From the NCBI RefSeq assembly GCF_019263585.2, contig NZ_JADQDF010000001.1:4908501-4972500 (forward strand): a stretch of DNA of 64,000 bases, given 5' to 3'. This stretch comes from Pseudonocardia oceani (lineage in GTDB: Bacteria > Actinomycetota > Actinomycetes > Mycobacteriales > Pseudonocardiaceae). Shown in pieces: positions 22,347-39,464 of this stretch. Numbering within the stretch: the stretch's first letter is position 1; every line of letters starts with the position of its first letter. The notes beneath the pieces were generated by a model, which ran no database searches, was not told where the DNA came from, and worked only from the letters and a program-made list of their open reading frames with translations. Position numbers and translations under genes: made by a program.

Positions 22347-22766
22347 ATGCCGATCCTCGAGGTGCACCTGGTCGAGGGGTGCCACACCGACACCCAGCAC
22401 GCGGAGCTGCTCGCGGCCCTGTCACGCTGCTACGCCGAGGTGCTGGAGTCGCCGCTGTCGCGGGTGCGGGCGTTCCTCGTGCTGCACCCGCCCGCGCGGT
22501 GGGTGACGGCGGGGGAGCCGGGCGTCGAGGCACCGTACTTCACGGCGCTGGCCCTGCGCGGGCGGCCGGTGGAGCAGCGCCACCGCCTGCTCGGCGCGTG
22601 CACCGACGTGATCGTGGACGTGCTCGGCGTCGACCGGCAGCTCGTCCGCGGGCGGGTGGTGCAGGTCGATCCCGACGACTGGGGCATCGCCGGGGTGCCG
22701 GCCAGCGCGGCGCGGCGGACGGAGATCGAGGCGCGAGCGACCTCAGACGCCCGTCCCGCCCTGTGA
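22347..22766 (+). CDS. Tautomerase superfamily protein
   Basis: A 139-aa protein that starts Met-Pro (MPILEVHLVEG); processing of Met would expose the catalytic amino-terminal proline of the tautomerase superfamily. At this length it is a fused double beta-alpha-beta protein of the cis-CaaD/MIF size class rather than the 62-aa 4-OT type. Counting from Pro1, an Arg is at 70, but His28 of cis-CaaD is Tyr and Arg73 is Pro, so dehalogenase activity is not supported. It sits at the edge of the aromatic island and could tautomerise a muconate-type intermediate. An in-frame GTG nine bases upstream was rejected because it would bury Pro1. Confidence 0.75.
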   Translation: MPILEVHLVEGCHTDTQHAELLAALSRCYAEVLESPLSRVRAFLVLHPPARWVTAGEPGVEAPYFTALALRGRPVEQRHRLLGACTDVIVDVLGVDRQLVRGRVVQVDPDDWGIAGVPASAARRTEIEARATSDARPAL

Positions 22767-22855: not shown

Positions 22856-23581
22856 CTAGAAGATGCCGCGCCTCGCGCCCATGTCCAGGCCCAGGGTCGA
22901 GCCGTGCAGGGCGTCGGCCTCGGGTGCCAGCAGGGTCGCCACCGCCCACGCCACCTCCGACGGCGTGACGAGCCGGCCCAGCGGCGACTCCGCGGCCCGC
23001 TCGGCCAGCACCTGCTCCACCGGCACCCCGCGCTTCTGCGCCGCCTGCTCGGACAACCCGCGCAGGCGGGGGGTGTCGGCCGGGCCGGGGGCGACCAGGT
23101 GCGCGGTGACCCCGCGCGGGCCGTAGGACACCGCGAGCTGGCGCACCAGGTTGGCCAGCGCCGCGTTCGTGACGCCCGCCGCGCACGCGTAGGGGGCGGG
23201 CTCGATGCCGTAGTGGCCGCCGAGGGCGACGATCCGCGAACCGCGCTCCAGCCGGTCGTCGACGGCCCGGACCAGGCGCAGCAGCCCGCCGCACTTGAGC
23301 GCGACGGCGTGCCCGAGGGCGTCGGGGACGATCGTCTCCAGCGGTCCGGCCGCCGGCAGCCCCGCGGCCTGCACGACCATCCGCACCGGCCCGTCCAGCG
23401 CCGCGACGGCCCCGGCGATGGTGGCCACGGCGTCGTCGGAGCCGATGTCGGCCGCGCACGGGCCACCCCGCGCCACCGCGACGACGTCGAGCCCCTCGCC
23501 GCGCAGCCGCTCGGCGATCGCGCCGCCCAGCGCCCCCGACGCCCCGACGACGACGGCGGTCCCGCCGGTCGGGCCGCTCAC
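22856..23581 (-). CDS. Short-chain dehydrogenase/reductase
   Basis: A 241-aa SDR. The cofactor motif VVVGASGALGGAIAERL starts near residue 10 (GASGALG, the TGxxxGxG position), and the centre has IVALGGHYGIEPAPYACAAG. The usual YxxxK is displaced: the candidate Tyr is in PYACAAGVTNAAL, where Lys is absent at +4, so a catalytic deviation is likely. Many aromatic clusters use SDRs to rearomatise cis-dihydrodiols. The GTG start overlaps the HAD stop (GTGA), making it the last gene of the Rieske, zinc-ribbon, HAD, SDR operon. Confidence 0.85.
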   Translation of the reverse strand: MSGPTGGTAVVVGASGALGGAIAERLRGEGLDVVAVARGGPCAADIGSDDAVATIAGAVAALDGPVRMVVQAAGLPAAGPLETIVPDALGHAVALKCGGLLRLVRAVDDRLERGSRIVALGGHYGIEPAPYACAAGVTNAALANLVRQLAVSYGPRGVTAHLVAPGPADTPRLRGLSEQAAQKRGVPVEQVLAERAAESPLGRLVTPSEVAWAVATLLAPEADALHGSTLGLDMGARRGIF

Positions 23582-24249
23582 GCCGCCGCCTCCGCACCCA
23601 GGCCGAGCTCCGCGCGCGCCACGGCGAACGCCGCGGACGGGTCGGTCAGGTCCAGCTCCACCGCGATCATCCCGGCGCGCTGCGCCCCCGCGATGTTCCA
23701 CGGCATGTCGTCGACGAACACGATGTCGCCCGGCGCCGTGCCCAGCTCCTCGGCCGCCAGGGCGTAGGCCCTCGGGTCGGGCTTGAGGATGCCGGTGACC
23801 GAGGCGTCCACCAGCACGTCCACCTGCTGCAGCACCGGGTGCGAGGCCATCGCCGTGTCGCCGTGGAAGGCGCGCAGGTCGTTGGTCAGCACGCCGATCC
23901 GGTGGCCCGCGGCCCGGGCGTCGGCGACGAGCGCGGCGGCGGGCGGCCGGATGACGTCGTCGCCGGCCAGGGCGTAGAGCGTGTGCATGAACTCCTGGAT
24001 CGGCCAGTCCCGCCCCAGCGCCGCGCCGATCTCCTCGCTGCGCATCCGCCAGTACTCCCGCTCGCTGATCTCCTCGCGGATCATCGCGTCCCACTCCGGG
24101 TCGGGCTCGGTGCCCAGCGGGCCGCGCCGCGCGACCGCGGCCCGCACCCGCGGCTCGACCGCCCCGTACTCACCCAGCAGTTCGCTTCCGGAGCGGAAGA
24201 CCGTGCCGCCCAGGTCCAGCAGCAGTGCGCGCCTCGGTGGCTGCGTCAT
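23578..24249 (-). CDS. HAD-IA family hydrolase, candidate aryl-phosphate phosphatase
   Basis: A 223-aa HAD hydrolase with cap insertion. Motif I is LLLDLGGTVF: the nucleophile Asp is present but the +2 acid/base Asp is Gly, as also seen in YihX-like HAD phosphatases. Motif II is VLTND, motif III the Lys of ILKPDPRAY, and motif IV FVDDMPWN. I chose the ATG at 24249, which overlaps the stop of the upstream zinc-ribbon gene by one base (TGATG); a longer frame exists but would run through that gene. The operon with a Rieske oxygenase and divergence from kinase-like genes suggest removal of a phosphate from an aromatic intermediate. That role is inference; a dehalogenase-like or other phosphatase role is possible. 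Confidence 0.85.
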   Translation of the reverse strand: MTQPPRRALLLDLGGTVFRSGSELLGEYGAVEPRVRAAVARRGPLGTEPDPEWDAMIREEISEREYWRMRSEEIGAALGRDWPIQEFMHTLYALAGDDVIRPPAAALVADARAAGHRIGVLTNDLRAFHGDTAMASHPVLQQVDVLVDASVTGILKPDPRAYALAAEELGTAPGDIVFVDDMPWNIAGAQRAGMIAVELDLTDPSAAFAVARAELGLGAEAAA

Positions 24250-24423: not shown

Positions 24424-25659
24424 TCACCACGTCGGCACCGGGTCGCCGAACAGCTCGAGGACCTCCTCCTTGATGGGGGAGTAGCGCACCGAGCTCTCGC
24501 GCGTCCACAGCTGCCGGAACGCCATCGCCGACCCGAACTTGTCCTTCTCCATCGGCAGGTCGATGACGTCGTGCGGCTCGCGGTAGGTGCACAGTGGGTC
24601 CTCGCCGCGCGCGACGGCGTCCATCTGCTCGGCGTAGAGCTTGCGCAGCAGGATCACACCGAGGTCGGAGCGGCCCAGGTGCTCCTTCGTGCGGTCGGAG
24701 ATCCGGCCCTGCGTGATCCAGGCGACGATGTCCTGCCCGTCGACGTAGTCGCGCAGGTACTCGCCCTGCTCGTCGAACAGCGGCACCTCGTATGTCGGGA
24801 TCGTCTCCTGCGCCGGGGCGCCGCCCTCGGGCCGGTAGGTCTGGTACCAGACGTGCCAGGTGTTCTCGTCGTCGATCGGCACCCGGATCTGGAACGTCGC
24901 GAGCCCCGCCGCGCCGACGCGCAGCATGTGCGGGAACACCAGCGGGTGCCCCACCTTCCAGTCCTCGTCCTCCTCGGTGTGCCCCTCCAGGACGCGGCGC
25001 TTGAGGATGCCGTGCTCGAAGACCTCGAACGCGACCTTCACGTGCTTCTTGCTGACGACGGGCAGCGGCGCGGCCTTCCCGCCGATCTCGCGCAGGAAGT
25101 TGCCGTAGCGCCCGTGCAGCCACTCGACGTGGTACGGGTCGACGGAGTTCTCCATGATCTGCACGAAGTTGCAGGGGAGCTCGGCGTGGCCGATGTCGCG
25201 CCAGGCGTCCTCCCACACGAACAGGTCGTAGCGGGGCAGCTCCGGCGCGGGCAGCGGGCCGAGGTAGGCGAACACCAGCCCGCCCAGCTCCTGCACGGGG
25301 TAGGCGGTGGCGCGGATGCGGTCCTTGAACGTCGAGTCGGCGGGCTCGCCGGGCTGCTCGAGGCAGCGGCCGTCCGCGTCGAAGCGCCAGCCGTGGTACC
25401 CGCAGCGCAGGCCCTCCTCCTCGGTGCAGCCCAGCCACAGGGCGGCGCGCCGGTGCGGGCACTGCTCGGCGAGCAGGCCCACGGTGCCGCTGCCGTCGCG
25501 GTAGAGGACGAGGTCCTCCCCGAGCAGGCGGCGCTTCACCGGGATGCGCGTCGCCATGTCGTGGGTGGCGACCGGCCACCAGTAGCGGCGCAGCAGCTCA
25601 CCCATGGGGGTGCCCGGCCCGACCCGCGTCAGGCGCTCGTTCTTCTCGGCGCTCAGCAT
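24424..25659 (-). CDS. Rieske non-heme iron oxygenase, phthalate-dioxygenase/O-demethylase type (paralogue 1)
   Basis: A 411-aa oxygenase component. Rieske [2Fe-2S] ligands are C67-x-H69 and C86-x-x-H89 (CPHRRA and CGYHGW). The mononuclear iron site is ENSVDPYHVEWLHG with H177, H182 and bridging D174. The opening MLSAEKNERLTRVGPGTPMG is typical of the OphA2/LigX-like group, which hydroxylates or O-demethylates aromatic acids and is served by a separate reductase. I chose ATG 25659 because homologues start there; the frame continues upstream through the promoter region. It leads a four-gene operon and is divergent from the PEP-synthase-like pair. It may act on a phosphorylated phenol (inference). 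Confidence 0.92.
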   Translation of the reverse strand: MLSAEKNERLTRVGPGTPMGELLRRYWWPVATHDMATRIPVKRRLLGEDLVLYRDGSGTVGLLAEQCPHRRAALWLGCTEEEGLRCGYHGWRFDADGRCLEQPGEPADSTFKDRIRATAYPVQELGGLVFAYLGPLPAPELPRYDLFVWEDAWRDIGHAELPCNFVQIMENSVDPYHVEWLHGRYGNFLREIGGKAAPLPVVSKKHVKVAFEVFEHGILKRRVLEGHTEEDEDWKVGHPLVFPHMLRVGAAGLATFQIRVPIDDENTWHVWYQTYRPEGGAPAQETIPTYEVPLFDEQGEYLRDYVDGQDIVAWITQGRISDRTKEHLGRSDLGVILLRKLYAEQMDAVARGEDPLCTYREPHDVIDLPMEKDKFGSAMAFRQLWTRESSVRYSPIKEEVLELFGDPVPTW

Positions 25660-25826: not shown

Positions 25827-27575
25827 ATGGCCACTGTCGTCCCTGTGGAGCCGTACACCGGCGAGTGGTACCCGGGCTTCAAGCCCGAGCACCTCGAGTC
25901 GCCCTACATCATCGACGGGACCGGCCCCTTCACGAAGGAGGACGAGGACAAGTTCTGGTTCCTCGACTTCCACTGGTCCCGGGGGATGACCCCGCTCGCG
26001 GCCTTCGCCTGGGGTCAGGACGGGTACTGCTGGGGCACCCAGCACGCGGCCGAGGCCCTCCCGCTCCCCCCCGGCCGCGGCATCACCTCGCGCTTCGCCG
26101 GCACGCACCTCTACGGCTCGGCGATCCCCGAGTCCGACCCCCGCGAGATCGGCGCCCGCGCCAACCGCCTCGGGACCAACCTGCCGCGCTTCCTGCAGAA
26201 CTACCGGTCGACGTGGGAGCAGGGCCGCGACGAGCTCGAGGCCACCTGGGACCACTTCCACAACCTGGACCTGACGGCGGTGCCGACGGGTGAGCTGCCG
26301 ACCCTGCTCACCGCGGCGCGGCGCTACCACCAGCGCTCCATGGAGATCCACTTCAACGTGATGTACCCGCTGCTGGTGAACTTCCTCGGCTTCTACGGGG
26401 CCTGCGCCGAGATGGGCATCAACACCGCCGACATCGGCAAGTTCCTCCAGGGCGAGGACACCAAGATCATGGAGACCGACCGCGGGCTCGCCGAGCTCGC
26501 CCGGAAGGCCAAGGCGGCCGGTCTGCGCCAGGCGTTCGAGGAGAACTCCGGCACCGGCATCCGCACCGCGCTCTCCGCGCAGGGCGGCTCGGCGTCGCAG
26601 TGGCTCACCGACTTCGACGACTTCCTGCAGGTCTACGGCCACCGCCAGGAGGCCACCTGCGACGTCGGCGTCCCCAGCTGGATCGAGGACAACACGATCC
26701 CGCTCGACATGATCAAGAGCTTCGTCCTCAAGGACGAGGACCACGACTTCGAGGCCGCCGCCCGCAACGCGATGGCCGAGCGCGAGGGCGCGATCGAGAC
26801 CGCGCGGTCGGGCCTGACGAGGGAGGAGCAGGCCGTGTTCGACGCCGGCCTGCAGTCCAACCTCGAGGCCAACTTCCCGTGGTGGCAGGACGACCACAAC
26901 TACTACATCGACCTCAAGGTCATGATCCCGCTGCGCCGGGTCTGCCAGGAGCTGGCCGACCGCGTCGGGGCCGACCACAGGGACGACATGCTCTACCTGT
27001 TCTGGCCCGAGCTGCAGCAGGTGGCCGGCGGCTCCACCTACGACGGCGGGCTCAAGAGCCTGGTCAAGGACCGTCGCCAGTACTTCGACCACTGGGGCGC
27101 ACTGCGCGGCGAGATGCCGAAGGTGCTCGGCACGGTCCCGGAGACCGTCGAGGACCCGGTGCTCATCGAGATCTTCGGCCTCAACCCGACCTCGATCCGC
27201 GCGGTGCAGAACCCGAACGCGGCCGAGGAGACGGTGCTGCCCGGCGTCGCCGCGGCGAAGGGCGTCGCCAGGGGCATCGCGCGCGTCCTGCAGAGCAGCG
27301 ACGACATGCACCGCCTCGAGCCCGGCTCGATCCTGGTGTGCGAGTCGACCTCGCCCAGCTGGACCGCGGCCTTCGGCAAGATCGCCGGTGCGGCCTGCGA
27401 CGGCGGTGGCATGCTCAGCCACGCCGCGATCGTCGGGCGGGAGTACGGCGTGCCGACCGTGACCGCGATCGGCATCGCGACCGTCGCCATCAAGGACGGC
27501 GACGAGATCGAGGTGGACGGCACCAACGGCCGGGTCACCATCCTCAAGCGCGCGGCGGATCTGGCGGGCGCATGA
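25827..27575 (+). CDS. PEP-utilizing enzyme, phenylphosphate synthase-like swivelling-His subunit
   Basis: A 582-aa protein. Residues about 480-575 are the PEP-utilizer mobile domain, with phospho-His532 in GGGMLSHAAIVGREYGVPTV; LEPGSILVCESTSPSWTAAF leads into it. Residues 1-470 are helical and unlike the TIM barrel of PEP synthase. Together with the next gene (ATP-grasp half, 365 aa) this reproduces the two-part core of phenylphosphate synthase (about 70 + 40 kDa in Thauera) and of the Corynebacterium CreHI alkylphenol kinase, which transfer the beta-phosphate of ATP to a phenolic hydroxyl via phospho-His. AGGAG precedes the ATG. The genes overlap by ATGA. I infer phosphorylation of an aromatic hydroxyl in the cytosol; the exact substrate is unknown. 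Confidence 0.85.
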   Translation: MATVVPVEPYTGEWYPGFKPEHLESPYIIDGTGPFTKEDEDKFWFLDFHWSRGMTPLAAFAWGQDGYCWGTQHAAEALPLPPGRGITSRFAGTHLYGSAIPESDPREIGARANRLGTNLPRFLQNYRSTWEQGRDELEATWDHFHNLDLTAVPTGELPTLLTAARRYHQRSMEIHFNVMYPLLVNFLGFYGACAEMGINTADIGKFLQGEDTKIMETDRGLAELARKAKAAGLRQAFEENSGTGIRTALSAQGGSASQWLTDFDDFLQVYGHRQEATCDVGVPSWIEDNTIPLDMIKSFVLKDEDHDFEAAARNAMAEREGAIETARSGLTREEQAVFDAGLQSNLEANFPWWQDDHNYYIDLKVMIPLRRVCQELADRVGADHRDDMLYLFWPELQQVAGGSTYDGGLKSLVKDRRQYFDHWGALRGEMPKVLGTVPETVEDPVLIEIFGLNPTSIRAVQNPNAAEETVLPGVAAAKGVARGIARVLQSSDDMHRLEPGSILVCESTSPSWTAAFGKIAGAACDGGGMLSHAAIVGREYGVPTVTAIGIATVAIKDGDEIEVDGTNGRVTILKRAADLAGA

Positions 27576-28669
27576 CATCGGGGGTTCTGATGGTCGACAC
27601 CGCATCGGTGGTCTGGGTCGACGAGGTCGACCCGGCGGAGGCGGTGGCACTGGCCGGCTCCAAGATGGGGCGGCTCACCGAGCTGCACCGCGCCGGGGTG
27701 GAGGTGCCGCAGGGGTTCGCCGTCACCGTCGGGGCCTACCGGCGCCACTGCGCCGAGTCGGGCCTCGACGGGCGGATCGAGGAGGTCGTCGAGTGGCTGG
27801 GCACCGACCCGTCCGACGCCGCCGTCGAGGACGCGTCGGCGCGGATCCGGACGCTGTTCGAGCAGACCCCGATGTCCGACGCCCTGGCCGCCGAGATCAC
27901 CGAGGCCTACGAGGAGCTGTGCCTGCGCGCCGTCGACGTCAACGTCCCGACGGCGGTGCGCAGCTCGGCCACCGGTGAGGACGCCGCCGACGCGTCCTTC
28001 GCCGGGATCTTCGACACCTACCTCGGCGTCTCGGGTCCGCAGCGCGTGATCGACGCGGTGCGGCAGTGCTGGGGCTCGCTGTTCACCGGGCGGGCGCTGG
28101 CCTACCGGCTGCGCAAGGGCATCTCCCACCACGCGATGCCGATCGCGGTGGGCGTGATCGAGCTGATCCACGCCCGCGCGTCGGGCGTGGCGTTCTCGGT
28201 GCACCCGGTCACCGGCAAGCCCGACCGGATCGTCATCGAGACGAGCTGGGGGTGGGGCGAGGCGATCGTGCAGGGCCTGGTCAACCCCGACCACATCGAG
28301 GTCGGGAAGGCCGACGGGCGGCTGCTCAAGTACGACGTCGCGCACAAGACGGTGGTGTCGGCGTTCGACTTCGCCGACGGGCGCGTCACCGAGATCGAGA
28401 TGCCGGCGAAGCTGGCCGACCGCAAGGTCCTCGACGACGAGCAGATCGCCGCGATCGCCGCGGCCGTCACGTCGATCGAGGAGCACTACGGCTACCCCGT
28501 CGACGTGGAGTGGGTCATCTCCCGGCACCGCCGCGCGGGCGACCCGGTGTGCATCGTGCAGTCACGGCCGGTCACCGTCACCGCTCCGGTGGCGGCGCCC
28601 GCCGCCTACGACCCGGTGGCGCTGGCGCAGAAGTTCGTGTTCAGCGGGAAGCCGATCCCGGGGCGGTAG
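27572..28669 (+). CDS. PEP synthase N-terminal-like ATP-grasp subunit of aryl kinase
   Basis: A 365-aa protein matching the nucleotide-binding half of PEP synthase/pyruvate phosphate dikinase: GSKMGRLTELHRAGVEVPQG, VRSSATGEDAADASFAGIFD, GVAFSVHPVTGKPDRIVIE, SWGWGEAIVQGLVNPD and the closing VEWVI...IVQSRPVT. It lacks the swivel-His and PEP-binding domains, which are supplied in part by the preceding gene. It should load the pyrophosphoryl group from ATP onto the partner's His532. The start overlaps the upstream stop (ATGA). It ends the operon, 11 bp before a 17-bp perfect hairpin. No CBS-type third subunit (the gamma subunit of Thauera) is encoded nearby. Confidence 0.87.
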   Translation: MTSGVLMVDTASVVWVDEVDPAEAVALAGSKMGRLTELHRAGVEVPQGFAVTVGAYRRHCAESGLDGRIEEVVEWLGTDPSDAAVEDASARIRTLFEQTPMSDALAAEITEAYEELCLRAVDVNVPTAVRSSATGEDAADASFAGIFDTYLGVSGPQRVIDAVRQCWGSLFTGRALAYRLRKGISHHAMPIAVGVIELIHARASGVAFSVHPVTGKPDRIVIETSWGWGEAIVQGLVNPDHIEVGKADGRLLKYDVAHKTVVSAFDFADGRVTEIEMPAKLADRKVLDDEQIAAIAAAVTSIEEHYGYPVDVEWVISRHRRAGDPVCIVQSRPVTVTAPVAAPAAYDPVALAQKFVFSGKPIPGR

Positions 28670-28733: not shown

Positions 28734-29507
28734 TCAGGGAACGTGCCCCAACCGCCGGCTGATCACCGCCGCCGCCTCGACGACGCCGGTCCGGATGCGC
28801 CTCAGCGCCGGTGCTGCGGCGCGGTCGGTCGGGGCGGCCACCGACAGCGCCGCGATCACCGCCCCGTCGGCCCCGCGCACCGGCGCCCCCACCGACACGA
28901 CGCCGACGCGGCTCTCCTCCCGGTTCTCGGCCCACCCGCGCTCGGCGACCTCGCGCAGCCGCGTGCGCAGCACCGCCTCGTCGACGATCGTGAACGGGGT
29001 GTGGCGCCGCGGCACCCAGTGCGCCAGGCGCAGGTCCAGCTCCTCGGGCTCCAGCGCGGCGAGCAGCGACTTGCCGGTGCTCGTCGTCGTCGCGGGGAGC
29101 CGGGTGCCGACGCGGGAGAAGATGCGGACGGTGTGCGGGCTCTCCAGGCGGTCGATGTAGACCGACTCCATGCCGTCGAGCACGGCGAGCTGCACGGTCT
29201 CGCCCGTGGTGTGGCGCAGCGTCGCCATGACGGGCATCGCGGCCTCGTGCAGGTCCAGGTGCGAGCCGACGCTGGCGCCGAGCTCGAACAGGGCGATGCC
29301 GAGCCGGTAGCCGCCCGGGGCGCGCTCGACGAACCGCTCGGCGGCCAGCGTGGCCAGCATCCGGTGCACCGTCGACGTGGCCAGGCCCAGGCGCCGCGAC
29401 AGCTCCGAGACGCCGAGCTCGCGGTCGGTGCGGGAGAACTCCTTGAGCAGCCGCGCGGCGTTGCGCACCGATCCGAGCTCCCACGACGGCCTGCGGTTTC
29501 CCTCCAT
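28734..29507 (-). CDS. IclR family regulator (paralogue 1)
   Basis: A 257-aa IclR protein: N-terminal winged helix (SVRNAARLLKEFSRTD, then LGVSELSRRLGLATSTVHRM) and C-terminal effector domain (about 85-250) with VYIDRLESPHTVRIFSRVG, TSTGKSLLAAL and SVGAPVRGADG. IclR proteins of this kind control aromatic catabolism with the aromatic or a pathway intermediate as effector. It is divergent from the second Rieske oxygenase (70-bp gap) and next to the kinase-like operon, so either could be its target. It resembles the IclR protein at 34844. Confidence 0.9.
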   Translation of the reverse strand: MEGNRRPSWELGSVRNAARLLKEFSRTDRELGVSELSRRLGLATSTVHRMLATLAAERFVERAPGGYRLGIALFELGASVGSHLDLHEAAMPVMATLRHTTGETVQLAVLDGMESVYIDRLESPHTVRIFSRVGTRLPATTTSTGKSLLAALEPEELDLRLAHWVPRRHTPFTIVDEAVLRTRLREVAERGWAENREESRVGVVSVGAPVRGADGAVIAALSVAAPTDRAAAPALRRIRTGVVEAAAVISRRLGHVP

Positions 29508-29577: not shown

Positions 29578-30873
29578 ATGCTGACCGCCGAGCAGAACGA
29601 GCAGCTGACCCAGGTCGAGGCCGGGACGCCGATGGGGGAGGTGCTGCGCCGCTACTGGTACCCGGTGGCGTTCACGCGCGAGCTCGAGGAGTTCCCCGTC
29701 AAGCGCGTCGAGCTGCTGGGGGAGTTCTTCGCGCTGTGGAAGAGCCCCTCGGGGCGCTACGGCATCGTCCCGGAGGCGTGCCCGCACCGGAAGGCGTCGC
29801 TGGCCTACGGCGTCGTCGAGGCCGACGGCATCCGCTGCCCGTACCACGGCTGGGTCTTCGACGCCGACGGCGCGTGCACCTCGCAGCCCGCCGAGCGCGA
29901 CAACACCCAGTTCCAGGACCGGGTGAAGGCCCACGCCGGCAAGGTCGAGGAGATGGGCGGCCTGATCTGGGCCTACGTCGGCCCGCACTCCGCCGACGAG
30001 CCCGCGCCGCTGCTGCCGCGCTTCGACACCTTCGTCATGGACGGCTTCCGCGACATCGGCTGGGTCGACCTGCCCTGCAACTACGTGCAGATCATGGAGA
30101 ACGCGGTCGACCCGCACCACGTCGAGTTCCTGCACGGGCGCTACTTCGAGTTCGTCGGGCGCCACGAGGGCTTCACCGCGCCGGCGTCGTTCGGCAAGGA
30201 GCACGTGAAGATCGGCTTCACCGCGTTCGAGTGGGGCATCATCAAGCGCCGCGTGCTCAAGGGCGCCACGGAGGAGGACGACGACTGGAAGGTCGGCCAC
30301 CCGCTGGTGTTCCCCTACAACATGCGCGTGGGCGGCGGCGGCATCCACCAGATGCAGATCCGGGTGCCGGTCAACCGGACCACCACCCGCTTCATGCTCT
30401 ACACGGTGCACAGCCCCGACGGCTACGAGCACGTCGACCAGCCGCAGGTGCCCGACTACGAGCTGCCGCTCTTCGACGACAAGGGCCGCCACGTCACCAA
30501 CTACGTCGAGGGCCAGGACATGATGGCCTGGGTGACGCAGGGCCCGATCACCGACCGCACCACCGAGCACCTGGGCCGCAGCGACATCGGCGTGGCGATG
30601 CTGCGCAAGATGTTCCGCGAGCAGATGGACGTGGTCGCGCGCGGCGAGGACCCGCTGGGCACGATCCGCGAGGAGCACGAGCGGATCGACCTGCCGTGCG
30701 AGAAGGACAAGTTCCACGCGGGCGGCGGCGCGCAGTTCGCGCTCGACTTCTGCGACATGGGCTCCACCCGCTTCTCCCCGGTCCTCGACACCATCAAGAA
30801 GATCCACATCTCGGCGGCCGACTCGATCGCGGCGGAGAAGGCGGCGGCCCGGGACGCTGCGCAGGCCGGATGA
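29578..30873 (+). CDS. Rieske non-heme iron oxygenase (paralogue 2)
   Basis: A 431-aa oxygenase component related to the protein at 24424. Rieske ligands are C68-x-H70 and C87-x-x-H90 (CPHRKA, CPYHGW), and the iron site ENAVDPHHVEFLHG gives H181, H186 and bridging D178. The opening MLTAEQNEQLTQVEAGTPMG places it in the same phthalate-dioxygenase-like group. Ligands are complete in both paralogues, so both should be active, perhaps on different substrates or positions. Its stop overlaps the start of a zinc-ribbon gene (ATGA). No reductase gene lies nearby; electrons may come through the Rieske ferredoxin at 32606 or a reductase elsewhere. Confidence 0.92.
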   Translation: MLTAEQNEQLTQVEAGTPMGEVLRRYWYPVAFTRELEEFPVKRVELLGEFFALWKSPSGRYGIVPEACPHRKASLAYGVVEADGIRCPYHGWVFDADGACTSQPAERDNTQFQDRVKAHAGKVEEMGGLIWAYVGPHSADEPAPLLPRFDTFVMDGFRDIGWVDLPCNYVQIMENAVDPHHVEFLHGRYFEFVGRHEGFTAPASFGKEHVKIGFTAFEWGIIKRRVLKGATEEDDDWKVGHPLVFPYNMRVGGGGIHQMQIRVPVNRTTTRFMLYTVHSPDGYEHVDQPQVPDYELPLFDDKGRHVTNYVEGQDMMAWVTQGPITDRTTEHLGRSDIGVAMLRKMFREQMDVVARGEDPLGTIREEHERIDLPCEKDKFHAGGGAQFALDFCDMGSTRFSPVLDTIKKIHISAADSIAAEKAAARDAAQAG

Positions 30874-31088
30874 GCACCCCGCTGGACCGGCGGTTCGTCG
30901 CCGACGCGGCGGCGCACCGCCGGGACGCGCCCCGCTTCTGCCCGGCCTGCGCGGCCGGGCTGGGGATCGCCACGGAGTTCTGGGAGGCCGACGAGCGGCG
31001 CTTCTACTGCTCCTGCACCGGCTGCGGATGGACCGGGGAGATCACGCCGACCGGCGACGTCGCCTCGGGCCACGAGCCGGACCACTGA
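30870..31088 (+). CDS. Rieske-associated small zinc-ribbon protein (72 aa)
   Basis: A 72-aa protein coupled by an ATGA overlap to the second Rieske oxygenase. After about 21 charged residues it has RFCPACAAGLGIATEFWEAD and a second knuckle YCSCTGCGW, then an acidic, His-containing tail. The pattern and residues match the 55-aa protein that follows the first Rieske oxygenase. A zinc-ribbon fold is likely; the role is unknown. Its last 85 bp overlap the 3' end of the convergent PAP2 gene. Confidence 0.78.
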   Translation: MSTPLDRRFVADAAAHRRDAPRFCPACAAGLGIATEFWEADERRFYCSCTGCGWTGEITPTGDVASGHEPDH

Positions 31089-32605: not shown

Positions 32606-32965
32606 CTACTCGCCGCGGGCGTGCGCGCGCAGGCGCTCGGCCCACGACAGCGTCGCCGCCGGCTCGCCGACGTCGGCGAAGCGCGCCCCGTCGCGCTCGA
32701 CCACCGGGTAGGTGGCGAGGTGGTGCTGCGGGGCGGTCTCGCACTCGCCGGTGTCGAGGTCGAAGCGGTACCAGTGCCACGGGCAGACGACCACGCGCCC
32801 GTCGCGCAGCCAGCCCTGGTCGAGCGGGCCCTTGTTGTGCGGACACACGGCGTCGGTGACGCGGAGCCCGTCGCCGACGCGGAAGACCGCGAAGCCACGC
32901 CCGTCCTCGGAGCGGACGGTCCACGCGTCGCGGCCGTCCACCCCGTCGAGCGGGACCAGGCTCAC
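32606..32965 (-). CDS. Rieske-type ferredoxin
   Basis: A 119-aa soluble Rieske protein with one [2Fe-2S] site, AVCPHNKGPLDQGW and VVVCPWHWYRFDL (C-x-H, C-x-x-H). Size and layout fit the electron-transfer ferredoxins of ring-hydroxylating oxygenases. The GTG start overlaps the tautomerase stop (GTGA), tying it to the hydratase, decarboxylase, tautomerase operon. It may feed the two Rieske oxygenases 2-7 kb away, or reactivate the iron of the extradiol dioxygenases as XylT-type (though not Rieske) ferredoxins do. No cognate reductase is seen. Confidence 0.85.
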   Translation of the reverse strand: MSLVPLDGVDGRDAWTVRSEDGRGFAVFRVGDGLRVTDAVCPHNKGPLDQGWLRDGRVVVCPWHWYRFDLDTGECETAPQHHLATYPVVERDGARFADVGEPAATLSWAERLRAHARGE

Positions 32966-33165
32966 CGCTGCCCGGACGCCCGCAGCGCCGTCAGCGACTC
33001 CCCGCCCACGAACCACAGGTCGGGCTCGCACTCGGTGACGACCACGCGCACGTTCCCCGTCGGCGCGCCGATCGACTCGTGCACGGCGGCCGTGACGGCC
33101 TCGCCGAGCGCGGCGAGCTGCTCGGGGGTGCGGCCCTTGGCGAGCGTGATCTGGACGAGCGGCAC
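32962..33165 (-). CDS. 4-oxalocrotonate tautomerase
   Basis: A 67-aa protein starting GTG-CCG (VPLVQITLAKGRTPEQLAAL), so Pro becomes residue 1 after Met removal, the catalytic base of 4-OT. Length fits the 4-OT family. It would convert 2-hydroxymuconate to 2-oxo-3-hexenedioate for the decarboxylase encoded upstream. AAGGAGG 6-13 bases upstream fixes the start; longer frames would bury the proline. A 20-bp hairpin lies directly upstream of that ribosome site. Confidence 0.88.
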   Translation of the reverse strand: MPLVQITLAKGRTPEQLAALGEAVTAAVHESIGAPTGNVRVVVTECEPDLWFVGGESLTALRASGQR

Positions 33166-33229: not shown

Positions 33230-33970
33230 TCATGAGCAGCCGAGCTCGAGCGTCCCGAGCCGGTCGATCGAGGCGACCACCACGTCGCCGGGCGCCACCG
33301 GCACCGCCGCCGTCAGCCCGCCGGAGAGCACGACGTCGCCGGCCGAGAGGCCCTCGCCGTCGGCGGCCATCGTTCGCACCATCCACGCGACGGCCGCCGC
33401 CGGGTGCCCGAGCGACGCGGCGCCCGAGGCCGTGGACATGAGCTCCCCGTTCTTCTCCAGGACCACGCCGACCAGCCGCAGGTCGATCCCCGCGGCCGGC
33501 ACCGGCGTGCCGACGACGAACCGTCCGGCGGAGGTGTTGTCGGCGACGACGTCGGCCATCGTGAACTCGTAGTCGCGGTAGCGGGAGTCGAGCACCTCGA
33601 TGCCGACGGCCACCCCCGACGACGCGGCGATCACGTCGGCCGCGGTGACGTGCGGGCCCGCGAGGTCGCGCCCGAGGACGAACACGATCTCGGGCTCGCA
33701 GCGCGGCTGGATGAGCTCGGAGGTCGCCAGCGGCTCGCCGATGTCGAGCGCGTTGGCCCCGGCGAGGAAGCCGAACACCGGGCTCGACACGCCCACCTGG
33801 GCCTGCTTCGCGCGGCTGGTGACGCCGAGCTTCCAGCCCACGAGCGGCCCGGCGGCGTCGCGCAGCTCGCGCTGCACGGCGTAGGCGGTGGGGAGGTCGG
33901 GGACGCCCAGGGCGTCGATGGCCGTGCGGTCGGCGACGGCCTTCTGCAGCTGTACGGCGTACTCGGTCAT
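33230..33970 (-). CDS. dmpH: 4-oxalocrotonate decarboxylase (hydratase/decarboxylase family)
   Basis: A 246-aa member of the FAH-like hydratase/decarboxylase family. KLGVTSRAKQAQVGVSSPVFG and the metal-site CEPEIVFVLGRDL (Glu ligands) are clear, with GIEVLDSRY following. It pairs with the neighbouring hydratase; in the Dmp pathway the decarboxylase and hydratase form a complex. Of the two, this shorter one (GVSSPVFG) is the better decarboxylase candidate, but the pair could be swapped. Its ATG overlaps the upstream stop by 4 bp. Confidence 0.8.
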   Translation of the reverse strand: MTEYAVQLQKAVADRTAIDALGVPDLPTAYAVQRELRDAAGPLVGWKLGVTSRAKQAQVGVSSPVFGFLAGANALDIGEPLATSELIQPRCEPEIVFVLGRDLAGPHVTAADVIAASSGVAVGIEVLDSRYRDYEFTMADVVADNTSAGRFVVGTPVPAAGIDLRLVGVVLEKNGELMSTASGAASLGHPAAAVAWMVRTMAADGEGLSAGDVVLSGGLTAAVPVAPGDVVVASIDRLGTLELGCS

Positions 33971-34752
33971 GCGCCCACCCTCACCGTGATCGGGCCGAGC
34001 CGGTCGAACTCGGCGCGGAAGACGTCACCCGCGGCCATCGGGACCGCGGCGTGCAGCGCCCCGGTCATGATGAGGTGCCCGGGCTCCAGCGCGACGCCGT
34101 TCTCCCCGAGCACGTTGGCCAGCCAGGCGACGACGGCCACCGGGTCGCCCAGCGCGGCCGCGCCGGCGCCGGTGTCGATGAGCTCGCCGTTGCGGGTGAG
34201 CGTCATGCCGATCAGCCGGGAGTCGATCCCGTCGAGCGGGACGATCCGGCTCGACGTGGCCATCGCGCCGTTGGAGGCCAGGTCGGCGACGGTGTCGGCC
34301 AGCTTGATCCGCCAGTCGGCGATCCGGGAGTCGACGATCTCCATCGCGGCGACGGCGCCCGCGATGGCCGCGTGCGCCTGCGTGACCGTGACGCCGGGCC
34401 CCTGCAGCCGCGAGCCGAGCACGAACACGATCTCGGCCTCGATCTTCGGGGCGATGAAGCGGTCGAGCGGGATCGTGTCGCCGTCGCGGAAGACGGTGGA
34501 GGCGAGCACGGGGCCGTGGTCGGGGGAGTCGACGCCGACCATCTTCTGCATCGGCTTGCTCGTCAGCCCGACCTTGTGGCCGATGATGCGGTCGCCGTCG
34601 GCCAGCAGCAGCGCGATGAGCTCGCGCTGCACCGCGTAGCCGTCGGCCATCCCGAGCGTCGGGTCCTCGTCGGTGAAGGGCGCGATGGGTACGCGGGTGC
34701 GCCGGGCGTCGTAGAGCGCCCGGGCCTTCGCCGGTGCGTCGGTCACGGGCAT
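33967..34752 (-). CDS. dmpE: 2-keto-4-pentenoate (2-hydroxypentadienoate) hydratase
   Basis: A 261-aa hydratase (EC 4.2.1.80) with KVGLTSKPMQKMVGVDSPDH, APKIEAEIVFVLGSRL (metal ligands) and AMEIVDSRIADW. It hydrates 2-hydroxypenta-2,4-dienoate to 4-hydroxy-2-oxovalerate, the substrate of the aldolase at 10.3 kb. GGGAG precedes the ATG. It is the first gene of the operon, with a CGTTCCG-N5-CGGAACG operator 71-89 bp upstream. Confidence 0.88.
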   Translation of the reverse strand: MPVTDAPAKARALYDARRTRVPIAPFTDEDPTLGMADGYAVQRELIALLLADGDRIIGHKVGLTSKPMQKMVGVDSPDHGPVLASTVFRDGDTIPLDRFIAPKIEAEIVFVLGSRLQGPGVTVTQAHAAIAGAVAAMEIVDSRIADWRIKLADTVADLASNGAMATSSRIVPLDGIDSRLIGMTLTRNGELIDTGAGAAALGDPVAVVAWLANVLGENGVALEPGHLIMTGALHAAVPMAAGDVFRAEFDRLGPITVRVGA

Positions 34753-34843: not shown

Positions 34844-35632
34844 TCACGCCTCCCGCCCCCGCTGCGCCAGCTCCGGGTTCCAGCCCAGGCGCCTGCCGAC
34901 GGCCTCGCCCGCCTCCACCAGGTCGCGGGCGAACCGGCGGCGCGGGACGGTGTCGAAGCGGGCCGCCGGCGCCCCGATGCTGACGGCCGCGACGACGTCG
35001 CCGTGGATGTCGCGGATCGGCGCGGCGATGCTCGCGACGCCGATCTCGCGCTCGTCGACCGCCTCGGCCCAGCCGCGGGCGCGCACCGAGGCGAGCTCGG
35101 CGCGCAGCACCGCGGCGTCGACGACGGTGTGCGGGGTGAGCCGGGCCAGGGGACGGGCGAGGAAGGCCTCGCGCTCAGGCTCGGGCAGGTGCGCGAGCAG
35201 GACCTTGCCGCTGGAGGTGCAGTGCGCGGGGACCCTGCGCCCGGTCTCGGTGAACAGCCGCAGCGAGTGGGCGCTCTCCAGCCGGTCGACGTAGACGACC
35301 TCGTCGCCGTCGAGCACCCCGATCTGCGACGACTCGCCGGTCTGGTCGCGCAGGTGCGCGAGCACGGGACCGGCCGCGGCGTGCAGGTCCATGTGCACCT
35401 TGACGGCCTCGCCGAGCTCGAACACGACGATGCCGAGCCGGTAGCCGCCGGTGCGGGGGTCCTGCTCGACCAGGCCCTCGGCGACCAGCGTGGCGAGGAG
35501 GCGGTGGACGCCGGACTTTCCGAGGTCGAGCCGGCGCGCCAGCTCCGACACCCCGATCGACTCCTCGCGGGTGAGGAACGCCTTGAGCAGCCGGGCGGCG
35601 TTGCGGACGGTGGACAGCGTCGCGTCGGTCAT
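34844..35632 (-). CDS. IclR family regulator (paralogue 2), likely meta-pathway regulator
   Basis: A 262-aa IclR protein. HTH: STVRNAARLLKAFLTREE and IGVSELARRLDLGKSGVHRL. Effector domain: VYVDRLESAHSLRLFTETG, CTSSGKVLLAHL and GVASIAAPIRDIHGD. It lies between the hydratase operon and the dioxygenase operon, both of which carry the shared palindrome, so it is the best candidate for the protein that binds it. Its ATG overlaps the stop of the upstream unknown gene (ATGA), so the two are coupled. Confidence 0.9.
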   Translation of the reverse strand: MTDATLSTVRNAARLLKAFLTREESIGVSELARRLDLGKSGVHRLLATLVAEGLVEQDPRTGGYRLGIVVFELGEAVKVHMDLHAAAGPVLAHLRDQTGESSQIGVLDGDEVVYVDRLESAHSLRLFTETGRRVPAHCTSSGKVLLAHLPEPEREAFLARPLARLTPHTVVDAAVLRAELASVRARGWAEAVDEREIGVASIAAPIRDIHGDVVAAVSIGAPAARFDTVPRRRFARDLVEAGEAVGRRLGWNPELAQRGREA

Positions 35633-36330
35633 GCGGGCGGGACCTTCGGCGTCCAGTCCCGGCGCCCGCCGACCGACTCCAGCAGCGCGCGGCGCACCGC
35701 GTCGGGATCGGGGGCGGCGACGTCCGCCGCCGCCGCGACGCCGGCGTTGTGCGGCGCGATCGCCTTCGCCAGCAGCGCCTGGGCGCGGGGGAGCCCGGCT
35801 GCGGCGGCGCCCACCAGCTCGTCGACGAGGTGCTCGCGGCCGCGAACCCGCGCCCGGATCGCCTCGAAGTCGCGCGCCGCGTTCGAGTGCCCGCTGGCCA
35901 GCCCCGAGCCCACGTGCCCGGCGTGGTGCGCGGTGAGCCCGGATCCCGGCTGCGCCACCACGTGGTAGACGACGGTCGTGAGCCCCAGCGCGTGCTTGAC
36001 CTCGGCGTACGCCGGCTCCTCGCGCTCGTCGACCAGCCCGAGCGCGGGCGTGACGACCGGGTCGTAGAACCGCAGCGACCACTCGAGGCCGGGCAGTTCG
36101 CCGGGCAGCGCGACCTCCTGGCCGCGCAGCGGGCCCAGGCCCTCGCGGGTGGCGAGCAGGTGCAGGTTGCGCGCCCCGACGGCGGCGACGGTGAGCGGGG
36201 CGCCGCCGGCCAGCAGGGGCATCCGCCCGCGCACGGCGGGCGGGAACGTGTCGGCCTGCGCCAGGTAGGCGCGGTGCAGCGCGGTGACGTAGCCGGCCAC
36301 GGCGGTGCGCATGTCGAGCGGATCGGTCAT
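35629..36330 (-). CDS. Unknown protein coupled to the IclR gene
   Basis: A 233-aa soluble protein that I do not recognise. It has no signal peptide or membrane helix. Visible features are a His-rich central stretch (LTAHHAGHVGSGLASGHSNA), an FYDPVVTPAL element near residue 90 and a helical Ala-rich C-terminus. The clustered His residues could bind a metal. It starts from a region shared with the divergent dioxygenase gene, whose operator lies 27 bp upstream of its ATG, and its stop overlaps the IclR start. Position implies a role in the aromatic pathway or its sensing. Confidence 0.7.
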   Translation of the reverse strand: MTDPLDMRTAVAGYVTALHRAYLAQADTFPPAVRGRMPLLAGGAPLTVAAVGARNLHLLATREGLGPLRGQEVALPGELPGLEWSLRFYDPVVTPALGLVDEREEPAYAEVKHALGLTTVVYHVVAQPGSGLTAHHAGHVGSGLASGHSNAARDFEAIRARVRGREHLVDELVGAAAAGLPRAQALLAKAIAPHNAGVAAAADVAAPDPDAVRRALLESVGGRRDWTPKVPPA

Positions 36331-36356
36331 GCCCCGCCCCCGTCCTGATGTCCGAG

Positions 36357-36375: not shown

Positions 36376-36452
36376 CGCTGTCTTCCTTCCGGAACGCTAA
36401 GCGGGTTAGCGTCGCCTCGTCAAGCAGGCCGCCAACCCCGGGAGCCGCAGCC

Positions 36453-37382
36453 GTGGGGATCCTCCGCCTCGCCCACATCGACGTCCGCACGCCGGACCTC
36501 GATCTCGCGACCGCCTACTACACCGAGGTCATGGGCCTCCAGCAGGTCCAGCGCACGAACGACCCCGAGCTGGGCGACACCGTGTACTTCAAGTGCTGGG
36601 ACGAGGAGGACCACCACTCGCTGCGCATGCGCTACAACCCGCGCACCGGGATGGACTCCTTCACCTTCCGCGTCGAGCACGAGGACGACCTGCACGTCTA
36701 CGAGAAGAAGCTCGCCGACTACGGCGCCCAGGTCTCGCGCGTCAGCAAGGGCGAGGCGGTCGGGCAGGGCGAGTCGATCCGGTTCGAGGTGCCCTCGGGC
36801 CAGATCATGGAGCTGGTCTGGGACGTCGAGAAGACCGGCAACATCCTCGGCAAGTCCAACCCGTCGCCGGTGCCGCCGCCGGACCTGCCGGGCATCGCCC
36901 CGCCCCGGATGGACCACATGCTCGTCAACGCCGAGGAGGTGGGCGAGGCCGCGCGGTTCTTCCAGGACGTGCTGGGCCTGCGCCTCACCGAGCAGGTGCT
37001 CGACGGCAACGGCCACCAGCTCGGCGTCTGGCTCGCCGGCCGCACGAACTCCCCGCACGACATCGCGATCGTCAACGGCCCGAACGGCGCGCTGCACCAC
37101 TGGGCGTACTGGCTCGACGACTGGGACCACATCCGCAAGGCCGCCGACACGCTCGCCTACAACGGTGTGCAGATCGACCAGGGTCCGACGCGCCACGGCG
37201 TCACGCGCGGCAACACCATCTACTTCTTCGACCCGCTGGGCATCCGCAACGAGGTGTTCACCGGCGGCTACTGGGTCGACCCCGACCAGGAGATCATCAC
37301 CTGGACCGAGCAGGAGTTCGGCAAGGGGTTGTTCTACTACGAGAACATCGTCAGCCAGCGATTCCTGAGGATGCACACATGA
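36453..37382 (+). CDS. Catechol 2,3-dioxygenase (tandem copy 1)
   Basis: A 309-aa two-domain vicinal-oxygen-chelate extradiol dioxygenase. Iron ligands by position and motif: H155 (RMDHMLV), H215/216 (ALHHWAYW) and E267 (RNEVFTGGY), close to H153/H214/E265 of XylE. It would open catechol or a substituted catechol at the 2,3-bond to 2-hydroxymuconic semialdehyde. I chose GTG 36453 (GGGAG upstream) because the protein then begins on HIDVRTPDL; a longer frame runs back through the operator. It overlaps the second copy by ATGA. Confidence 0.93.
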   Translation: MGILRLAHIDVRTPDLDLATAYYTEVMGLQQVQRTNDPELGDTVYFKCWDEEDHHSLRMRYNPRTGMDSFTFRVEHEDDLHVYEKKLADYGAQVSRVSKGEAVGQGESIRFEVPSGQIMELVWDVEKTGNILGKSNPSPVPPPDLPGIAPPRMDHMLVNAEEVGEAARFFQDVLGLRLTEQVLDGNGHQLGVWLAGRTNSPHDIAIVNGPNGALHHWAYWLDDWDHIRKAADTLAYNGVQIDQGPTRHGVTRGNTIYFFDPLGIRNEVFTGGYWVDPDQEIITWTEQEFGKGLFYYENIVSQRFLRMHT

Positions 37383-38308
37383 GCGATCGGATCCTGCGCC
37401 TCCAGCACGTCGAGATCCGGGTCCCCGATCTCGAGCTGTGCACCGCCTACTACACCGAGGTCCTCGGCCTCATCGAGACCGCGCGCGACGTCAAGGACGG
37501 CGTCGACCGCGTGTTCCTCAAGTGCTGGGACGAGCACGAGCACCACTCGGTGGTCCTGCGCCAGGCACCGACCTACGGGCTCGACCACATGGCGTTCAAG
37601 GTGGCCGAGCAGGGCGACCTCGACTACTTCACCGACAAGCTGCAGGCCGTGAGCGTGCCGGTGAAGCGCTACGCCGCCCGCGAGCTGGGCCCGGGCTGGG
37701 GCGAGGCGATCCGCTTCGAGTCGCCCTCGGGGCACCTCGTGGAGCTCGTGCACGGCATGGAGCGCCTGGGCAACATGCTGCCGATGACGAACCCGCCGCC
37801 CAAGCCGCAGGACCTCGTCGGGATCGCGCCGCCGCGGCTGGACCACGTGTTCGTGATGGCCGAGGACGTCGAGGCGTTCTCCGCGTTCTTCACCGACGTG
37901 CTGGAGTTCCGGCTCACCGAGCAGATCGTGGCCAACGACGGCCACCAGCTCGCCGCGTTCCTCGAGCGCAGCCACACCCCGCACGACATCGCCGTCATCA
38001 CCGGCCCGAACGGGGCGCTGCACCACTTCGCGTTCTGGATGGACGACTGGAACGGCATCCGCGACGCCGCCGACACGCTGGCGTACCACGGCGTGACGAT
38101 CGACGTGGCCCCCACGCGCCACGGCGTCACCCGCGGCTACACCACCTACTTCTTCGACCCCGTGGGCAACCGCAACGAGCTGTTCACCGGCGGCTACTGG
38201 GTCGACCCCGACTTCGAGCCGATCACGTGGACGGAGGAGGAGATGGGGCGCGCCATCTTCTACTACCACCGCCAGGTCAACGAGCGCTTCTTCACGGTGC
38301 ACTCGTGA
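37379..38308 (+). CDS. Catechol 2,3-dioxygenase (tandem copy 2)
   Basis: A 309-aa paralogue of the preceding gene, identical in length. Ligands are H156 (RLDHVFV), the His pair in ALHHFAFW and E267 (RNELFTGGY). Both copies retain all iron ligands, so they may differ in ring-substituent preference. Its ATG overlaps the upstream stop; its stop overlaps the start of a 77-bp MIRU-like insert that links it to the histidine phosphatase gene. Confidence 0.93.
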   Translation: MSDRILRLQHVEIRVPDLELCTAYYTEVLGLIETARDVKDGVDRVFLKCWDEHEHHSVVLRQAPTYGLDHMAFKVAEQGDLDYFTDKLQAVSVPVKRYAARELGPGWGEAIRFESPSGHLVELVHGMERLGNMLPMTNPPPKPQDLVGIAPPRLDHVFVMAEDVEAFSAFFTDVLEFRLTEQIVANDGHQLAAFLERSHTPHDIAVITGPNGALHHFAFWMDDWNGIRDAADTLAYHGVTIDVAPTRHGVTRGYTTYFFDPVGNRNELFTGGYWVDPDFEPITWTEEEMGRAIFYYHRQVNERFFTVHS

Positions 38309-38385
38309 GCGAGCTTGCGAGCTCACCATCAGACGCAGCAGCCCCGCGAATGCGGCCGACGAGTGCCAGCGAGGAGGACTCGTGA
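38305..38385 (+). repeat. 77-bp MIRU-like element with mini-ORF, copy 1
   Basis: From the GTGA at 38305 to the next GTGA at 38382 is exactly 77 bp. The insert is open as a 26-codon mini-ORF ([20 protein letters not shown], then ASEEDS) whose start overlaps the dioxygenase stop and whose stop overlaps the phosphatase start. Its 3' end supplies GAGGAGG (38371-38377), the ribosome site for the next gene. Copy 2 at 60177 matches about 73 of 81 positions. Mycobacterial MIRUs have this same size and start/stop-overlap habit; homology to them is not claimed. Confidence 0.8.
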
Positions 38386-39464
38386 GCAGCCCCCACGACC
38401 CGCGCAAGCTCGACCGGTACGAGGCGCCGAACTACCTCGCGAAGTACCGGGAGCGCCAGGGCGCCGCTCCGGTCGCGAACGGCAGCAACGGCCGCGGCGG
38501 CAACAGCAGCGGCACCGCCAACAAGGCCGGGGCCGGCACCGCGACCGTCGACGACACCCCGCTCTACCTGCGCCGCTTCCGCGAGCGGGGCGCGAGCACG
38601 GCGCCTGCGTCGACCGTCGAGTTCGACGGGGCCACGTTCACACCCGCACTGGCCGAGGCCACCCGCGGCAAGGAGGTCGTGGCGCCGGTCGAGCGGCGGG
38701 CGAGCGAGAAGTTCGTCTGCGAGATCTCGATCATCCGCCACGGCATCACGCAGGGGTACTCCACCGACGCCGGCCTGACGCCGATGGGCGGCTGGCAGGC
38801 CCACCGCCGCGGCCACGAGCTGGCCCGGCGCTGGGACGCCGGTGACACGGTCCGCCTGGTCCACGCCGACACCAACCGCGCCCGCCAGACCGCCGTGCAG
38901 CTCTACAACGGCGCGCAGGACGGCATGGCGATGTGGGGCAAGGACATCACGCTCACCGAGCCGGTGCCGATCCCCGAGCTGCGCAACTTCGGGGTGTGGA
39001 CCCCCGACGGCCTGCGCGACGTCACCTCGGCGTTCCGGCAGTACCAGTCGACGATGGAGAAGCTGGAGCGGATGGCCGTCGGTGACCGCCCGCGCTGGCT
39101 CGTCGAGATCGACCGCTTCTACCGCGTGCAGCTGGGCGGGGGGGACCCGATCCAGACCTGGCTGACGATCCCGCTCATGTACTTCGAGCCGCCCGCGCTG
39201 TGCGTGCGCCGGTTCTGGCGGGGCTTCCACCGGCTCATCGCGGAGAACCCCGGCGACCAGCGCATCCTCGCCGCCACGCACTCCGGCCCGATGCGCGCGT
39301 TCGCCACCTGGGCCCACGGCTACGACCCCGGCGAACCCCTCAACACCGAGGAGATCCGGGTCAAGCTGCGCGAGGGCGGCCAGACGGCCTTCGTCTCCTA
39401 CCGCAACCGCGTCACCGAGGTGAACGTGCCGCCGCCGGACGAGTTCCCGGCCTGGGAATCATGA
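38382..39464 (+). CDS. Histidine phosphatase family protein with duplicated N-terminal motif
   Basis: A 360-aa phosphatase of the phosphoglycerate-mutase-like superfamily. Catalytic H120 is in ISIIRHGITQG, and the second catalytic His is in LAATHSGPMRAF. Residues 1-110 are an extra, mostly disordered region holding two similar segments, APNYLAKYRERQGAAP and TPLYLRRFRERGASTAP, around a Gly/Asn/Ser linker. In the operon of two catechol dioxygenases, and in a locus with aryl-kinase-like genes, it could release the catechol from its phosphate ester. The repeated segments look like short docking or oligomerisation motifs. GTG 38382 sits in the GTGA overlap with the MIRU-like insert. Confidence 0.85.
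   Translation: MSSPHDPRKLDRYEAPNYLAKYRERQGAAPVANGSNGRGGNSSGTANKAGAGTATVDDTPLYLRRFRERGASTAPASTVEFDGATFTPALAEATRGKEVVAPVERRASEKFVCEISIIRHGITQGYSTDAGLTPMGGWQAHRRGHELARRWDAGDTVRLVHADTNRARQTAVQLYNGAQDGMAMWGKDITLTEPVPIPELRNFGVWTPDGLRDVTSAFRQYQSTMEKLERMAVGDRPRWLVEIDRFYRVQLGGGDPIQTWLTIPLMYFEPPALCVRRFWRGFHRLIAENPGDQRILAATHSGPMRAFATWAHGYDPGEPLNTEEIRVKLREGGQTAFVSYRNRVTEVNVPPPDEFPAWES

Follow-up and report, generated by a model that had tools for sequence, protein, structure and literature searches.

A 64,000-nucleotide stretch of the Pseudonocardia oceani genome (contig NZ_JADQDF010000001.1, positions 4,908,501 to 4,972,500; hereafter the window) carries two coupled genes, encoding the proteins KinA and KinB, which are likely to form an aryl kinase because the catalytic histidine and the ATP-grasp residues are present. 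Judged by sequence, the pair forms a separate clade within a known kind of enzyme and is no orthologue of the Pps, Cre or Hpe kinases. Its main interest lies in its company: two clades of such kinases are recurrently linked to genes of the demethylase type, and although the two-component aryl kinase is itself known, this pairing looks new. We propose, with a probability of roughly 0.55, that the kinase acts on a guaiacol-type methoxyphenol, that the aryl phosphate is O-demethylated by the neighbouring Rieske oxygenases RieA and RieB, and that a phosphatase then opens the way to meta cleavage.

A split dikinase in a clade of its own

Both open reading frames (ORFs) are intact. The swivel domain of KinA (PF00391, PEP-utilizer; residues 498-568 in Pfam) contains His532 within the motif CDGGGMLSH, and this histidine is unchanged across 34 of 34 aligned rows. 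KinB matches PPDK_N over residues 26-341 (E 1.7e-94), and its K31, V129-A133 (VRSSA), E136, D137, D311, E313, Q330 and R332 are unchanged in all 14 rows of an alignment in which rifampicin phosphotransferase (RPH) is represented by its N-terminal half. An ATGA at 27572-27575 joins the KinA stop to the KinB start; because a second in-frame ATG lies at 27590, the exact start of KinB is not proven. Such a four-base overlap of a candidate KinB start (ATG or GTG) with the KinA stop is possible at 45 of 56 loci (ORFs of at least 270 codons; loci L009-L062, L105 and L108). Pfam found no TIM-barrel family in KinA or KinB, the barrel that marks phosphoenolpyruvate (PEP) synthase and PPDK, and no CBS domain among the 30 window proteins scanned. 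The first-pass annotation, made from the letters of the DNA, had described the His532 swivel motif, the ATP-grasp motif set, the ATGA coupling, the lack of a PEP-binding TIM barrel and of a CBS-domain gamma subunit, and an aerobic setting, to which the oxygen-dependent neighbour genes attest; each of these descriptions stands. Its view that the missing third subunit is unusual does not, since CreHI and HpeHI have already been published as two-gene aryl dikinases of aerobic pathways (PMC12167813). The linkage to Rieske, LigM and phosphatase genes described below is absent from that annotation.

The predicted structure of KinA (mean predicted local distance difference test score, pLDDT, 87.5) matches residues 316-867 of RPH in a fold comparison, with Z 25.0 over 476 residues, while the matches of PPDK, enzyme I and pyruvate kinase extend over about 100-110 KinA residues, essentially the swivel part. 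HpeH is also related to RPH by fold (PMC12167813). With the swivel histidine and the ATP-grasp on separate subunits and an RPH-like substrate domain, the pair has the make-up of a two-component small-molecule dikinase. Single-chain RPH is ruled out by the two ORFs, and PEP synthase by the absence of the PEP TIM barrel.

In a tree of 56 selected KinA rows rooted on RPH, in which L061, L108, L118 and L120 drew long-branch warnings, the window protein falls in clade A (support 96/91). The sister clade B (98/98) contains Azoarcus PpsA, a Rieske-linked group, and Cre-type and Hpe-type rows, these two types named from their neighbouring genes and not by assay. The first-pass annotation had named a position inside the PEP synthase or RPH clades as what would overturn its reading; no such position is seen, RPH being a distant outgroup and PEP synthase sharing only the swivel domain with KinA. 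Identity to proteins of the Pps, Cre and Hpe types is 25-29% (25-28% against seven clade-B rows, at best 29.4%) and does not reach the published level of about 45% that HpeH, CreH and PpsA share with one another. Against NCBIfam PRK08296, KinA scores 227 bits and misses the cut-off of 578, and a clade-B protein of P. bannensis (L018) scores 861.9 bits against a cut-off of 650. Eight residues before the catalytic histidine stands a cysteine in all 54 distinct rows of clade A, whereas clade B has threonine or serine in 25 of 26, the remaining row stopping short of the motif; the clade-A signature is C-D-[GS]-G-G-x-L-[ST]-H, compared with the published T/S-x-x-G-G-x-x-x-H. Tree, identity, cut-off and signature thus rule out membership of the Pps/Cre/Hpe clade. 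The earlier label, phenylphosphate-synthase-like, is right about the two-gene dikinase split but misplaces the pair, which is no phenylphosphate synthase.

The comparison with characterized systems runs along the same line. HpeHI of Rhodococcus rhodochrous GD02 likewise has two genes, separate swivel-histidine and ATP-grasp subunits, an RPH-like fold and a setting in aerobic aromatic catabolism, but it differs in its clade (B), its signature and its biotin-carboxylase pathway; this comparison was made through Hpe-type proteins named by their neighbours (L112, L113 and L120), not through HpeH itself. The 4-cresol kinase CreHI of Corynebacterium glutamicum is another two-gene aerobic aryl kinase, and the Cre-type plasmid loci L067 and L119 have an IclR regulator nearby, as the window does, but CreHI belongs to clade B and is followed by a P450 rather than by a Rieske or LigM enzyme. 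PpsABC from a plasmid of Azoarcus sp. KH32C (L068) shares the alpha/beta split, but comes with a CBS gamma protein and with genes for phenylphosphate carboxylase, and KinA is 25% identical to its counterpart. Azoarcus PpsC as a query found no match at any clade-A locus, and among the loci PpcA, PpcB and PpcD matched only L068, the window having been checked for them just through its Pfam- and NCBIfam-scanned proteins. RPH has the same domains and fold as KinA and KinB, but in a single chain.

The closest named relative of KinA, from P. hydrocarbonoxydans, is 93% identical, and KinA is found at an identity of at least 69% in 24 of 62 genomes of the genus, its own counted, in one of them in two pieces. 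Two remote relatives (L108 and L109; 35-36% identity) occupy different surroundings: one adjoins a meta-cleavage operon and has a short KinB, and the other adjoins hflX and miaA in a stretch that holds no KinB match.

Recurrent linkage to demethylase-type genes

Of 58 loci obtained, 53 (L009-L061) were counted, L062-L066 being partial, short or remote, and neighbours were searched by tblastn within about 11 kb of the pair. L016 does not differ from L017 in its DNA, L049 and L107 come from one contig, and L060 overlaps L106, so the counts are of loci and not of independent events. Among the 46 non-mycobacterial actinobacterial loci, a Rieske oxygenase of the LigX/phthalate family lies close to the pair at 36 and a LigM-type O-demethylase at five. 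In Pseudonocardia and Actinomycetospora, where several contigs are short, the Rieske gene is present at 32 of 33 loci, meta-cleavage genes at 30 and a HAD hydrolase at 24. The other 13 loci are more mixed (Rieske 4, LigM-type 5, MetE-like 6, phosphatase-type 6), with a Rieske, LigM-type or MetE-like gene, at least one of them, at 10. A dikinase that acts, like RPH on rifampicin, on some non-phenolic small molecule and merely happens to neighbour aromatic genes would suit both the RPH fold and the distance of clade A from the phenol kinases, but the aromatic-catabolic neighbours found at most clade-A loci, in several families and one proteobacterium, make it very improbable.

That proteobacterium is a Rhodoferax, whose contig has a compact row of KinA, KinB, a DdmC-like Rieske oxygenase, a HAD hydrolase and a reductase, and the best match of the Rieske protein is the dicamba O-demethylase DdmC (161.7 bits). 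The contig is probably not misbinned, because genes downstream look proteobacterial, being presumably NusB, lumazine synthase and a RibA-like protein. Of the 299 genomes searched in its family, only the starting genome matched; no relative of this KinA was found in the 298 others.

Placing the LigM loci on the KinA tree takes three changes, and the starred branches force three, so LigM-type and Rieske genes have been swapped more than once. The partner protein at L039 scores 415.7 bits against LigM. Among 394 actinobacterial genomes, a LigM relative with 70% identity to it is confined to G188, where it lies 3.1 kb from the clade-A kinase; the contig is that of L049 and therefore adds no new evidence, but this restriction means that the pairing is not explained by LigM being common.

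A search from the side of the oxygenase also leads to kinases. In the same sample, from which the window genome was excluded, 17 places are RieB-like (E <= 1e-90), and at 14 of them a two-component kinase match is no more than 1.1 kb away. Thirteen sit 29-358 bases from a match of the clade-B type, assigned through the tree in 8 cases and through 67-78% identity to the clade-B protein KinA2 in 5. At the RieA-like place G381:C345 a clade-A kinase lies at 1,089 bases. In G325 the RieB-like gene stands at the end of one contig and a kinase at the end of another, the remaining genes of the usual operon flanking each. Five fetched clade-B clusters (L099, L100, L101, L103 and L104) share the order C23Oa-C23Ob-HisPh-KinB2-KinA2-RieB, named for two catechol 2,3-dioxygenases, a histidine phosphatase, the kinase and the oxygenase. 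In the window, C23Oa-C23Ob-HisPh lies at 36453-39464 and RieB with a small partner at 29578-31088, yet the kinase is of clade A. In P. bannensis and P. acidicola (L018 and L019), clade-A and clade-B kinase pairs occur in one cluster.

A proposed role for the phosphate as a removable acid handle

Why spend ATP, down to AMP, on a phenol? If our proposal is right, the phosphate is a removable acid handle, and the expense is explained. Gene identities, fold, clade and linkage are observed here, whereas the substrate, the product, the order of steps and the role of the phosphate are inferred, as follows. A phenolic substrate is plausible from the gene context, and a guaiacol-type methoxyphenol is the likely one. 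KinA and KinB would work as a two-component ATP-dependent aryl dikinase in the manner of HpeHI and RPH: by homology, KinB would bind ATP, and the beta-phosphate would pass to His532 on the KinA swivel and on to a phenol held in KinA. RieB, RieA or both may then demethylate the aryl phosphate, the phosphate being recognized where Rieske and LigM demethylases otherwise meet a carboxylate; the histidine phosphatase, the HAD hydrolase or both could release catechol, which C23Oa, C23Ob and Dmp-type enzymes would take into meta cleavage. Beside one and the same kinase, members of two unrelated demethylase families take each other's place, which suggests removal of a methyl ether as the next step. 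The transfer from the ATP beta-phosphate through histidine to a phenol has been described for HpeHI (PMC12167813).

Both RieA and RieB combine a Rieske domain with a LigXa_C-type C-terminus, as expected of aryl O-demethylases, and by sequence the partner genes in the window and at the other loci fall into the LigM, LigX/VanA and DdmC families. Rieske and tetrahydrofolate (THF)-dependent demethylases have been described on aromatic acids. The substrates on record are aromatic acids for the LigM, VanA and DdmC types and a biphenyl compound for LigX (PMC6021390, PMC9867520); a phosphate would here take the place of the acid. The VanA-type demethylases tested require that the ring bear a carboxylic acid, and the Rhodococcus ruber R1 enzyme does not attack guaiacol (PMC9867520). 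Guaiacol demethylation is assigned to the P450 system GcoAB, and the two further paradigms are the Rieske and the THF enzymes (PMC6021390). A P450 gene near some of our loci was considered as such a GcoA-type demethylase, but none of the best 60 of 429 PDB matches of the P450 at L018 is named GcoA. The wider scheme, a phosphorylation-dependent aryl O-demethylation that uses acid-specific demethylases in a Rieske or a THF-dependent LigM version and continues through dephosphorylation to catechol meta cleavage, with two kinase clades serving the Rieske version in actinobacteria and Rhodoferax holding a compact operon, we advance more tentatively, as falling a little short of an even bet.

Several observations tell against the proposed pathway. 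The PDB entries closest to RieA and RieB are phthalate-dioxygenase-like, with DdmC fourth to fifth. Motif I of the HAD hydrolase is DLG instead of DxD; YihX-like phosphatases have a similar one. No reductase was identified beside KinA and KinB in the window. The last two of the 17 RieB-like places (G129:C26 and G112:C124), both RieA-like and in different genomes, have other neighbours and no kinase match nearby. At L030, L043, L044 and L051, of which L043 and L044 have short flanks, none of Rieske, LigM or MetE-like is seen, and the MetE-like protein found at other loci has no role in the pathway, a weak point. None of the six Mycobacteriaceae loci has a Rieske, LigM or MetE-like gene; phenol-hydroxylase genes are present at five and meta-cleavage genes at all six, which suggests that the mycobacterial clade-A kinases act on another substrate and speaks against a single role.

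The kinase might instead phosphorylate phenol or an alkylphenol, with the Rieske enzyme oxygenating the ring of the aryl phosphate to give a catechol without demethylation, in a manner comparable to aniline, which is glutamylated before it is dioxygenated. The phthalate-dioxygenase-like relatives of RieA and RieB (7fhr is named so, and 7fjl we take to be another) would fit such a reaction, as would the mycobacterial loci with their phenol-hydroxylase and catechol 2,3-dioxygenase genes. We nevertheless consider it rather unlikely, in view of the LigM-type demethylases that replace the Rieske gene at five loci, the Rhodoferax Rieske protein that is nearest to a demethylase, and the phosphatase-type genes, which are common although a direct release of phosphate would need none. 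The model of RieB (mean pLDDT 42.6) is too poor for a search for an anion pocket; in the alignment of RieB with 7fjl, Arg207 stands opposite Ala202 and Arg244 opposite Val239 (beside Lys238), and from these presumably important arginines we draw no claim.

Kinase and oxygenases could also serve parallel branches, the kinase trapping or activating one phenol in the manner of Cre and Hpe and the oxygenases using unphosphorylated compounds. The many genes and three IclR regulators of the window cluster, and the RieA-like genes that lack a kinase, would then be expected, but the compact Rhodoferax row and the near-constant presence of a kinase, from either of two clades, next to RieB-like genes render this improbable.

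To our knowledge, phenols phosphorylated by enzymes have been reported to undergo either carboxylation (Pps, Hpe) or oxidation by a P450 (Cre). Titles and abstract beginnings of open-licence PMC papers yielded none that connects two-component aryl kinases with demethylation of the Rieske or LigM type, and the main texts of PMC9618137, PMC12167813 and PMC13101465 do not contain the word Rieske. Hpe-type kinase and carboxylase genes cluster in only 52 of 836 cases (PMC13101465), so many such kinases need another explanation. If true, our proposal would supply a function for a kinase clade in which we found no assayed member and add a module for lignin conversion.

Other genes of the cluster

Table 1. 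Genes of the window cluster, with positions numbered from the first letter of the window
Feature	Position	Strand	Remarks
Tautomerase-family protein	22347..22766	+	
SDR dehydrogenase	22856..23581	-	Kept in Pseudonocardia and Actinomycetospora clusters
HAD hydrolase, candidate phosphatase	23578..24249	-	Motif I DLG, not DxD
RieA, Rieske oxygenase	24424..25659	-	Divergent to KinA; Rieske and LigXa_C above Pfam cut-off
KinA	25827..27575	+	Substrate-binding and swivel (His532) subunit of dikinase
KinB	27572..28669	+	ATP-grasp subunit; alternative start 27590
IclR-type regulator	28734..29507	-	Domain-family matches
RieB, Rieske oxygenase	29578..30873	+	Rieske, LigXa_C and VanA_C above Pfam cut-off
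72-residue protein, zinc-ribbon-like	30870..31088	+	Two CxxC pairs (CPAC, CTGC); overlaps RieB by ATGA
Rieske ferredoxin, candidate electron donor	32606..32965	-	Pfam, scanned as longer ORF
4-Oxalocrotonate tautomerase-like protein	32962..33165	-	
DmpH-like decarboxylase	33230..33970	-	Best NCBIfam match, under cut-off
DmpE-like hydratase	33967..34752	-	Best NCBIfam match, under cut-off
IclR-type regulator	34844..35632	-	Scanned as longer ORF
C23Oa, catechol 2,3-dioxygenase	36453..37382	+	TIGR03211 345.6 bits, cut-off 320.2; scanned as 36348-37382
C23Ob, catechol 2,3-dioxygenase	37379..38308	+	TIGR03211 364.3 bits, cut-off 320.2
HisPh, histidine phosphatase	38382..39464	+	50-54% identity to those of clade-B kinase operons
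IclR-type regulator	39481..40356	+	

The 72-residue protein is kept directly 3' of RieB at many loci, and its relative in P. hydrocarbonoxydans has no Pfam match. HisPh retains the RHG and THSG motifs. It is extended at the N-terminus by about 110 residues, which include two similar motifs (APxYLxRY and PLYLRRF) and are missing from its shorter relatives at L040 and L041.

A distant protein of the MetE-like methyltransferase fold recurs beside clade-A kinases (L040, L042, L045, L049, L059, L060 and L105), at L060 within a fetched stretch that contains neither Rieske nor LigM; this protein may be another demethylating enzyme, or it may deal with the methyl group. Three more proteins of the window belong to this region. 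One at 31004-32470, within the cluster, has two PAP2 phosphatase domains, and only two other loci have one. A 233-residue protein at 35629-36330, which has no Pfam match, stands beside an IclR regulator and a catechol 2,3-dioxygenase gene both here and in clade-B kinase clusters. At 40369-43812 lies a 1147-residue protein with TPP, POR and DUF6537 domains, which we take to be a fused 2-oxoacid ferredoxin oxidoreductase.

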